From: Sphingobacterium sp. SYP-B4668
Lineage (GTDB): Bacteria > Bacteroidota > Bacteroidia > Sphingobacteriales > Sphingobacteriaceae
Direction: 5' to 3'
DNA: 64,000 nt
NCBI RefSeq assembly: GCF_027627455.1
Contig: NZ_CP115483.1
Location: 4,774,001 to 4,838,000, forward strand
Below are positions 27,285 to 28,154 of the stretch, in pieces (the stretch's first letter is position 1; the number at the start of each line of letters is the position of its first letter). Position numbers and translations under genes: made by a program. Below the pieces are notes generated by a model that saw only the letters and a program-made list of their open reading frames with translations, had not been told where the DNA came from and made no database searches.

Positions 27285-27304
27285 AGCACATATACCGTGA
27301 ACAT
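27285..27304 (-). pseudogene. Truncated third GIY-YIG copy
   Basis: On the minus strand the sequence from the ATG at 27304 reads MFTVYVL, identical to the start of the two intact GIY-YIG genes, then switches to unrelated sequence and stops after about 20 codons. The terminator copy upstream of it is intact. It marks the edge of the tandem array. Confidence 0.8.
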
Positions 27305-27329
27305 GATGGAAAAATTGGTTAAAAAAAAA

Positions 27330-27354
27330 GCCTCAGTTCGTAAACTGAAGCTTT
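27330..27354 (-). terminator. Copy of the tRNA-fMet terminator (distal unit)
   Basis: The hairpin cctcagtt / aactgaag has loop cgta and is followed by a T-run on the minus strand (nine A on plus). One arm base differs from the copy next to the intact tRNA, leaving a C-A mismatch. Confidence 0.7.
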
Positions 27355-27361
27355 GACTAAG

Positions 27362-27415
27362 TAGCGGGGACCAGACTCGAACTGATGTCCGCCAGCTGGC
27401 GGATATGAGCCCGAC
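27362..27415 (-). pseudogene. Broken tRNA-fMet fragment with 16-bp palindrome (distal)
   Basis: The 3' end (acceptor strand and T-arm, 27362-27387) and part of the anticodon arm including CAT (27404-27415) are kept from tRNA-fMet. The ten bases of variable loop and 3' anticodon stem are replaced by the perfect palindrome tccgccagctggcgga (27388-27403). The D-arm and 5' acceptor strand are absent; the GIY-YIG stop codon lies 8 bp away. It cannot fold as a tRNA. Confidence 0.88.
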
Positions 27416-27422
27416 CAACTGG

Positions 27423-27665
27423 CTATTGTATCAAACTCCGGATGAACATCCGCCCACGATAACTCTTCAATGATTTCTCTCGCTGAAGGGCCGAAGACTT
27501 GTCTTCGTACTCTTCTTGATATAACAAACGCCAAGGGCGATAACGAACGGTCCAACCTTTCACCCCTAGCTCGTTGTGCGACAAGAGACGCCCCTCAAGA
27601 TCGGAGGTCATACCTATATAGATCTTGTCATAGGCAGCCGAATAAAGCACATATACCGTGAACAT
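27423..27665 (-). CDS. Small GIY-YIG nuclease (distal tandem copy)
   Basis: An 80-residue, single-domain GIY-YIG protein. The hallmark residues are present: Tyr5 in VYVLYS, Tyr16-Ile17-Gly18 in KIYIGMT, Arg26 in LEGRLLSHN and the metal-binding Glu63 in LQREKSLKSYRGR. It has no DNA-binding extension, as in the YhbQ/UPF0213-like small GIY-YIG proteins common in Bacteroidetes. The protein is identical to the proximal copy. It lies directly behind a tRNA-fMet terminator copy, so expression would need read-through or a cryptic promoter. Cleavage of DNA or RNA is predicted from the family; the target is unknown. Overlapping longer frames in another phase are shadows. Confidence 0.88.
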   Translation of the reverse strand: MFTVYVLYSAAYDKIYIGMTSDLEGRLLSHNELGVKGWTVRYRPWRLLYQEEYEDKSSALQREKSLKSYRGRMFIRSLIQ

Positions 27666-27689
27666 GATGGAAAAATCGGTTAAAAAAAA

Positions 27690-27714
27690 GCCTCAGTTCG
27701 TAAACTGAAGCTTT
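27690..27714 (-). terminator. Copy of the tRNA-fMet terminator (proximal unit)
   Basis: Same hairpin as at 27330-27354, with an eight-base T-run on the minus strand, located between the broken tRNA copy and the distal GIY-YIG gene. Confidence 0.7.
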
Positions 27715-27721
27715 GACTAAG

Positions 27722-27775
27722 TAGCGGGGACCAGACTCGAACTGATGTCCGCCAGCTGGCGGATATGAGCCCGAC
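27722..27775 (-). pseudogene. Broken tRNA-fMet fragment with 16-bp palindrome (proximal)
   Basis: Identical to the fragment at 27362-27415: tRNA-fMet 3' end, palindrome at 27748-27763 in place of the variable loop and 3' anticodon stem, then the anticodon remnant. It follows the proximal GIY-YIG stop by 8 bp. Confidence 0.88.
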
Positions 27776-27782
27776 CAACTGG

Positions 27783-28025
27783 CTATTGTATCAAACTCCG
27801 GATGAACATCCGCCCACGATAACTCTTCAATGATTTCTCTCGCTGAAGGGCCGAAGACTTGTCTTCGTACTCTTCTTGATATAACAAACGCCAAGGGCGA
27901 TAACGAACGGTCCAACCTTTCACCCCTAGCTCGTTGTGCGACAAGAGACGCCCCTCAAGATCGGAGGTCATACCTATATAGATCTTGTCATAGGCAGCCG
28001 AATAAAGCACATATACCGTGAACAT
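27783..28025 (-). CDS. Small GIY-YIG nuclease (proximal tandem copy)
   Basis: Same 80-residue protein as the distal copy, with Tyr5, Tyr16-Ile17-Gly18, Arg26 and Glu63 intact, so both copies look functional. It begins about 57 bp downstream of the intact tRNA-fMet gene and about 25 bp after its terminator on the same strand. The organisation tRNA - terminator - GIY-YIG then repeats downstream, but with broken tRNA. The absence of any base difference between the two genes indicates a recent duplication or gene conversion. Confidence 0.9.
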   Translation of the reverse strand: MFTVYVLYSAAYDKIYIGMTSDLEGRLLSHNELGVKGWTVRYRPWRLLYQEEYEDKSSALQREKSLKSYRGRMFIRSLIQ

Positions 28026-28040
28026 GATGGAAAAATTGGT

Positions 28041-28075
28041 TAAAAAAAAAGCTTCAGTTCGTAAACTGAAGCTTT
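28041..28075 (-). terminator. Intrinsic terminator of tRNA-fMet
   Basis: Perfect 12-bp arms aaagcttcagtt (28048-28059) and aactgaagcttt (28064-28075), loop cgta, with a T-run on the minus strand (A-run 28042-28050). It is the intact version of the hairpin repeated in the tandem units. Confidence 0.85.
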
Positions 28076-28082
28076 GAATAAG

Positions 28083-28154
28083 TAGCGGGGACCAGACTCG
28101 AACTGATGACCTTCGGGTTATGAGCCCGACGAGCTACCACTGCTCCACCCCGCA
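28083..28154 (-). tRNA. Initiator tRNA-fMet (CAT), copy 1
   Basis: Cloverleaf read on the minus strand: acceptor TGCGGGG / CCCCGCT, D-arm GAGC..GCTC, anticodon arm TCGGG-CTCATAA-CCCGA, T-arm ATCAG-TTCGAGT-CTGGT. The three consecutive G:C pairs in the anticodon stem and the unpaired first position (T1 against T72) are hallmarks of initiator tRNA. CCA is not encoded (ACT follows). It is the proximal intact gene next to the GIY-YIG array. Confidence 0.95.

Follow-up and report, generated by a model that had tools for sequence, protein, structure and literature searches.

A tandem array of GIY-YIG nuclease units behind tRNA-fMet in Sphingobacterium, possibly one member of a Bacteroidota family of tRNA-anchored selfish elements

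The window analysed here is a stretch of 64,000 nucleotides from Sphingobacterium sp. SYP-B4668, the genome of which forms one contig of 5.42 Mb; it covers positions 4774001-4838000 of that contig. Read along the minus strand, a pair of tRNA-fMet genes is followed by a terminator, a GIY-YIG open reading frame (ORF), a marked tRNA-fMet fragment with its terminator, the same ORF again, a second fragment with its terminator and finally a stub of the nuclease gene. The features are:

28202..28274, minus strand: intact initiator tRNA-fMet, copy 1 (ARAGORN, Rfam RF00005; GGG..CCC anticodon stem read directly)
28082..28154, minus strand: intact initiator tRNA-fMet, copy 2, immediately preceding the array (ARAGORN, Rfam RF00005)
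28048..28075, minus strand: terminator hairpin of tRNA-fMet copy 2 (repeat and sequence reading)
27783..28025, minus strand: GIY-YIG nuclease ORF of unit 1, 80 aa (PF01541, E 3e-15; model pLDDT 96)
27721..27775, minus strand: pseudo-tRNA-fMet of unit 1 (by-eye comparison with tRNA copy 2)
27748..27763, no strand: perfect palindrome TCCGCCAGCTGGCGGA of unit 1
27687..27714, minus strand: terminator hairpin of unit 1
27423..27665, minus strand: GIY-YIG nuclease ORF of unit 2, identical to that of unit 1
27361..27415, minus strand: pseudo-tRNA-fMet of unit 2
27388..27403, no strand: perfect palindrome TCCGCCAGCTGGCGGA of unit 2
27327..27354, minus strand: terminator hairpin of unit 2
27285..27305, minus strand: third nuclease copy, limited to its first 7 codons
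26134..27210, plus strand: Exo_endo_phos (PF03372) gene within the block missing from genome G053
25831..25894, minus strand: distal relic made up of a 27-nt tRNA-fMet 3' end and a degenerate terminator, abutting the old flank
about 25841..28015, no strand: block lacking in G053, a genome of the same species (comparison with G053)

The array is real, and as the sequence-only reading of this locus had stated, its units lie behind the intact tRNA-fMet pair on the same strand (28274-28202 and 28154-28082, with three differences between copies 2 and 1), while the third nuclease copy ends after seven codons (27305-27285). The two 360-bp units had been described as identical, which holds for their ORFs; as a whole, the units differ by a single substitution and by the length of a T-run, which is one T longer in one of them. 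The same layout is also present in other genomes, and this together with a direct repeat of 300 nt at 99% rules out a chance repeat.

Each unit was proposed to join the nuclease gene to the tRNA-fMet 3' end and the tRNA terminator. Both parts are found, and the copies do carry pieces of the tRNA; however, what each copy carries is not the plain fragment supposed but a pseudo-tRNA version of the local tRNA gene, marked by a hairpin. It is composed of 12 nt of anticodon arm, a palindrome and a native tRNA 3' end of 27 nt, and reads GTCGGGCTCATA, then TCCGCCAGCTGGCGGA, then CATCAGTTCGAGTCTGGTCCCCGCTAC. The 16-bp perfect palindrome takes the place of the anticodon arm's 3' side, where the intact tRNA-fMet has ACCCGAAGGT, and tRNA sequence stands on both sides of it.

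Comparison with a locus lacking the unit, which had been suggested as a way to define the inserted block, was provided by G053, a genome of the same species. Both of its tRNA-fMet genes are identical to those of the window and are followed by the terminator, the bases ATGTTCACGG and then the flank, with no unit. Since the nuclease ORF begins with the same ten bases as ATGTTCACGG, this scar suggests that G053 formerly held a unit and lost it, or that it retains the stump of an array. A tRNA relic lies beyond the Exo_endo_phos gene (25894-25868 repeats the tRNA-fMet 3' end with one change), and the missing block therefore spans about 25841 to 28015, limits that are approximate because the ends fall inside repeated sequence. 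Pfam detected only GIY-YIG and Exo_endo_phos over the block, with no integrase and with eight other ORFs giving no Pfam match. The Exo_endo_phos gene was dropped as a component of the unit: it has relatives in 86 of the 93 genomes of the genus and none in G053, and is therefore taken as a passenger. Islands and ICEs that integrate at tRNA genes have an intact tRNA at one end of the block and a tRNA 3' fragment at the other. The direct repeat of the tRNA 3' end at the far end (25894-25868) resembles this arrangement, but no integrase was found in the block, the units measure 360 bp and their tRNA fragment bears a hairpin.

The number of units varies among related genomes, as anticipated for a mobile unit: none in G053, one in G090, two in the window and in G058, two frameshifted ones in G022, three in G084 and six in G081, the last being a one-contig genome. 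In another one-contig genome, G194, 8 of 12 matches are listed and 7 lie at regular intervals of 358 bp. Short reads cope poorly with identical short tandem repeats, and draft contigs do end inside arrays (G042, G084 and G089), so that an assembly artefact might be considered; it is nevertheless extremely improbable, because the window genome is one contig and other one-contig genomes hold arrays (the set with arrays being G000, G081, G058 and G194), and single units occur too (G090). Partial nuclease genes stand at the far end of several arrays (L035, L037, L053, L038, L045 and L049), which fits a loss of units from that end. Decayed copies adjoining the tRNA also exist (L112, L114 and L121), and frameshifted and truncated nuclease copies occur among relatives.

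The unit protein belongs to the GIY-YIG nuclease superfamily, with the PF01541 domain (E 3e-15) covering residues 2-68 of 80. Residues Y5, Y16, G18, R26 and E63, which we take to be the catalytic ones, are invariant in 22 sequences. The predicted model consists of one compact GIY-YIG domain (pLDDT 96), and the nearest solved folds are those of UPF0213, HIGLE and SLX1 (Foldseek E about 1e-3), the last being a nuclease of branched DNA; the predicted fold is likewise similar to BH0048 (PDB 1zg2). We know of no tRNA or hairpin association for the small stand-alone GIY-YIG proteins (UPF0213, BH0048) or SLX1. A sequence search of the PDB gave no match at E<=0.01, and NCBIfam has no model for the nuclease. 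The ORF is under purifying selection, with a dN/dS of 0.07-0.22 in every listed pair with finite dS.

Nuclease matches are widely distributed: they were found in 37 of 93 genomes of the genus (E<=1e-3, which takes in more distant GIY-YIG proteins), in 190 of 301 genomes and 16 of 25 genera of the family (profile, E<=1e-10), and in 233 of 395 genomes and 121 of 170 genera of the phylum Bacteroidota (profile, E<=1e-12). All three tallies count matches to the nuclease, the context being read for fetched loci only, mostly the best-scoring. Among the matches listed, relatives come from Mucilaginibacter, Olivibacter domesticus, Mangrovivirga, Cyclobacterium, and MAGs of Ignavibacteria and Cloacimonadota. 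Within the genus, tRNA-Val arrays as well as tRNA-Asn and tRNA-Asp units carry related nucleases, and the partner types beyond fMet comprise Met, Val, Asn, Asp, Phe and Pro. The initiator tRNA is hence not the special partner it had been taken for, and a mobile unit restricted to fMet is ruled out by the units at other tRNA types. One locus, L026, is a mirrored unit linked to tRNA-Arg.

The layout was examined in 166 loci in three sets (57, 29 and 80, with some records shared between sets), 136 of which could be judged. A tRNA gene lies on the same strand at most 200 nt upstream of the nuclease in 99 of the 136 (38/52, 24/26 and 37/58 per set) and on the opposite strand within 200 nt in none; the remaining 37 are without a tRNA call in the required place. 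A direct repeat of at least 15 nt across the nuclease gene is present in 104/136, and in the loci read it usually corresponds to the 3' part of the upstream tRNA plus its terminator. A T(Y)CCG..CGG(R)A hairpin follows downstream in 103/136, compared with 25 of 1266 background windows of 200 nt. By eye, the hairpin occupies the anticodon arm in Met, fMet and Val units, the T arm in Asp and some Asn units and the D arm in Phe units, and native tRNA sequence resumes directly after it. The unit accordingly consists of an 80-aa GIY-YIG gene, a shortened version of the adjacent tRNA with a T(Y)CCG..CGG(R)A hairpin in place of one arm, and a copy of the tRNA terminator. Some pseudo-tRNAs hold two hairpins, and in G008 and G041 a hairpin-marked copy precedes the nuclease gene, contrary to the usual order.

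The strict same-strand order of tRNA, terminator and nuclease (99 versus 0 loci) would also suit a host or addiction function at the RNA level, either as a pair of tRNA-like transcript and read-through nuclease in the style of type III toxin-antitoxin systems, in which an upstream repeat RNA neutralises a nuclease toxin and the order of RNA, terminator and nuclease is similar, or as a tRNA dosage device. Such a function could likewise explain the purifying selection on the ORF and the stable predicted fold of the pseudo-tRNA plus terminator (z -5.1), but this score includes the terminator. GIY-YIG enzymes are known DNA nucleases, and the units are patchily present, with none in the same-species G053 and with frameshifted and truncated copies, so that we regard an RNA-level role as improbable.

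The lineage of a nuclease is coupled to the type of its tRNA. In a tree built from 165 nucleases, 108 typed rows need 9 changes of tRNA type (minimum 5) when fMet and Met are merged, whereas 500 shuffles of tRNA type gave no fewer than 36 changes (mean 43.4); 16 changes are needed if fMet is kept apart from Met. An earlier tree of 95 rows, in which the tRNA-Arg-linked L026 was counted as Met, needs 5. The type counts leave out the rows without a readable tRNA type (21/95 and 52/165) and 5 more of the 165 with an odd type, and branch support is modest because the alignment has only 79 columns. A switch of type is seen in Cloacimonadota, where L194 and L196 fall inside the Met block of the tree but are located at tRNA-Asn. 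The layout and this coupling led us to reject an ordinary repair gene.

The pseudo-tRNAs track the local tRNA variant, and therefore derive from the local gene or were homogenised with it. This is clearest for Val, where identity is 0.973 to the own tRNA and 0.811 to those of other loci (30 loci, 16 variants) and the own tRNA is best or tied in 21/30. The difference is less telling for Asn (0.968 against 0.863; 4 loci) and fMet (0.971 against 0.939; 10 loci), and Met shows none (own and other both 0.966; 9 loci, 2 variants). In Met and fMet units, the replaced stretch has a perfect outer stem of at least 6 in 25 of 28 distinct entries, a hairpin not having been required for their selection, and the stems fall into four compensating types (CC/GG, TC/GA, TT/AA and CT/AG). 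The repeats of tRNA 3' end and terminator around each gene could perhaps recombine unaided, which would make the arrays a passive by-product of simple tandem duplication next to a repeated tRNA gene, and the GIY-YIG gene a bystander. This reading is largely contradicted by the phylum-wide recurrence at several tRNA genes, the coupling of lineage and tRNA and the shared hairpins, and we consider it very unlikely.

Spread by known phages or plasmids was rejected on three scans. Phage and plasmid records contain no relative of at least 60% identity, the only matches being alphaproteobacterial GIY-YIG proteins below 60% in 10 phage and 8 plasmid records, and 8 stretches in IMG/VR viral contigs fit the peptide pattern but none encodes a relative. 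No vehicle is therefore seen in these collections.

The palindromes are also found outside the arrays. TCCGCCAGCTGGCGGA occurs in 16 of the 93 genomes of the genus, and sites outside an array are present in 11 of 12 genomes with a fMet-type nuclease (matches of at least 58% identity in the genus search) versus 5 of 81 without (Fisher 8e-10, kinship ignored; counted by hand among the matches listed, which end before G090 and the end of G084, with the numbers of array copies taken from the loci read). The five genomes with such sites and no detected nuclease include G053, from which a unit was probably lost, and G077, an 88%-complete draft. Two TCCGCCAGCTGGCGGA sites in the window genome form gene-less tandem units of 106 bp behind the elongator tRNA-Met. 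Gene-less tandem units behind a called tRNA-Met also exist in G053 and G042, and a gene-less unit in G019, while in G058 the palindrome marks a 5'-truncated tRNA-Met. In G008, gene-less units lie behind the 5S rRNA (Rfam RF00001), and the palindrome replaces CCGTAACAGG of the 5S gene. A different palindrome, TCCGTTAGCTAACGGA, is the unit hairpin of some Mucilaginibacter; among the 301 family genomes it was detected in 11, every one a Mucilaginibacter, compared with 1 genome (G272) for the reversed control, and sits in the tRNA-Met unit of G243 and G247. G287 has TCCGTTAGCTAACGGA but no nuclease match in the family profile search.

The Val-type hairpin TCCCGA..TCGGGA is counted 5017 times in the 301 family genomes, against 365 for the reversed pattern. 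Its count rises with GIY-YIG number family-wide (rho 0.61) and within genera g14 (0.75), Mucilaginibacter (g15; 0.43), g1 (0.46) and g18 (0.79), the correlation not being significant within g21 and g4. In a g14 genome with 130 of these hairpins, 15 fetched loci inspected by eye held none in a pseudo-tRNA, and some of the hairpins were terminators or lay inside longer repeats; the family-wide correlation therefore concerns a broader class. The pooled count is weak as evidence for tRNA units, since the family profile, scored on at most 18 candidates per genome, also catches GIY-YIG genes embedded in repeats.

Break-driven amplification at tRNA genes has its nearest experimental precedent in SegB of phages T4 and T6, a free-standing GIY-YIG homing endonuclease (PMC13096335). 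As with SegB, a GIY-YIG gene stands beside tRNA genes in tandem units that combine nuclease and tRNA sequence; for SegB, cutting was shown to drive tandem amplification of the tRNA segment by recombination (PMC13096335), and such amplification is what we infer for the Bacteroidota units. A SegB-like homing process, in which a unit-free tRNA region is cut, repair copies the unit in, breaks in the repeats amplify it and the hairpin gives the pseudo-tRNA immunity, would agree with the existence of occupied and unit-free genomes in one species and with a hairpin interrupting a tRNA sequence that continues on both sides. However, the intact tRNA genes that would be the target do not differ between the occupied genome and the one without the unit (the target could be in the flank instead), and neither dispersed copies of the same palindrome nor gene-less units are expected. 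The units also differ from SegB, a phage gene with repeats that carry a full-length tRNA and a truncated nuclease (PMC13096335): they are chromosomal, their nuclease is full length and their tRNA is broken and hairpin-marked. Moreover, the separate DNA-binding region typical of homing endonucleases is absent from the protein, a bare catalytic domain of 80 aa (Pfam domain at residues 2-68, one compact domain). Homing of this kind thus appears possible but doubtful.

For an enzyme with palindromes spread in trans, the closest precedent is the REP/RAYT system (PMC3116915). The units share with REP/REPINs and RAYTs the dispersed short palindromes, a cognate palindrome beside the enzyme gene, gene-less copies and the coupling of enzyme lineage to palindrome class (PMC3116915). 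The co-occurrence of dispersed palindrome and enzyme that characterises REP/RAYT is found here in the 11/12 versus 5/81 genus genomes among the matches listed, kinship being ignored. Unlike the RAYT tyrosine transposases (PMC3116915), the enzyme is a GIY-YIG protein and the palindrome lies inside broken structural RNA genes; no HUH tyrosine transposase was found in the unit protein, PF01541 being its sole Pfam domain. The units fit neither the SegB nor the REP/RAYT definition entirely.

The best explanation, to which we give about an even chance, seems to be a selfish element anchored to tRNA genes, in which the GIY-YIG nuclease acts on hairpins and the arrays expand through breaks and recombination. 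The nuclease would recognise and cut hairpin DNA, as a palindrome or as an extruded hairpin, both within its own array and in trans. Repair of these breaks by a RecA-type process between the repeats of tRNA 3' end and terminator may then add, remove and homogenise units, while the upstream intact tRNA would stay unchanged in sequence and retain a terminator of its own. Transcription of the nuclease gene probably starts at the tRNA promoter and passes through the tRNA terminator. The sequence-only reading envisaged that the intact tRNA gene might be cut. This is less likely, since the occupied genome and the one without a unit do not differ in either tRNA-fMet copy, and the hairpin seems a better candidate substrate. 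That interpretation is as a whole partly supported. The Sphingobacterium locus may well be one member of a Bacteroidota family of small selfish elements anchored 3' of tRNA genes.

We propose more tentatively that these units are a Bacteroidota counterpart of REP/RAYT built on another enzyme. A minimal SLX1-like GIY-YIG nuclease would spread T(Y)CCG..CGG(R)A hairpins into the arms of structural RNA genes (tRNA and 5S rRNA), keep the intact RNA gene upstream and drive tandem arrays as well as dispersed gene-less copies, and a second GIY-YIG group might do likewise with longer interspersed repeats. The units look like an undescribed family of self-copying elements. Searches of open-access papers turned up no description of tRNA-linked GIY-YIG units in Bacteroidota among the matches listed, and a term search of the 2006 GIY-YIG survey (PMC1564403) gave nothing for Bacteroid-, Cytophaga, COG2827 or UPF0213. 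If the proposal is true, a widespread and so far undescribed class of elements would live on essential RNA genes in a major bacterial phylum, and would account for part of the short palindromes in Bacteroidota genomes. It would mean that the REP/RAYT problem of spreading tiny palindromes has been solved a second time, independently and by another enzyme, and the 80-residue, possibly structure-specific nuclease with its predictable hairpin would offer a test system for break-driven amplification at tRNA genes.

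The nucleases of the Ignavibacteria and Cloacimonadota MAGs (L189-L192, L194 and L196) share 62-66% identity with the window's nuclease, whereas that of G008, a genome of the same genus, is only 59% identical to it. These MAG nucleases are nearer to the window's than the G008 one, which may reflect either transfer across distant groups or contamination of the MAGs. The block missing from the same-species genome G053, which lacks the unit, also holds another gene of the window:

26134-27210, Exo_endo_phos gene, within the block absent from G053

Relatives of this gene occur in 86 of the 93 genus genomes, while a search of G053 found none, so that the gene was either acquired at the tRNA-fMet locus or relocated there.

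Several units depart from the layout of the window. Mirrored units are found at L026 (G033) and L145 (G624), where the hairpin-bearing 5' part of tRNA-Arg or tRNA-fMet is followed by the nuclease gene and then by the intact tRNA downstream. The pseudo-tRNAs of L171 (tRNA-Pro), L090 and L160 have two hairpins each, in two separate arms.

Units without a nuclease gene were observed behind 5S rRNA in G008 (L063-L065 and L081), at two of these places in tandem with 153-bp spacing. Each contains a 5S 3' fragment whose palindrome is identical to that of the G008 tRNA-fMet locus. Intergenic copies of the plain palindrome are present in G034, G038 and G084 (L069, L071-L074 and L077), with similar flanks (ACCGATCCGCCAGCTGGCGGATCATGAAATAATT and relatives) and often near a gene start.

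Other genus genomes (L025, L027-L029 and L031-L034) contain a second set of GIY-YIG genes, each roughly 100 codons long; judged by eye, their surroundings are longer interspersed repeats, not tRNAs. Counted on both strands with up to three mismatches, the flanking repeat GTCATTGCGAGGAGGTACGACG has 20 copies in G070, 36 in G049 and 6 in G013, and its reversed control has none. These genes and the repeat possibly represent a further repeat/nuclease pair.
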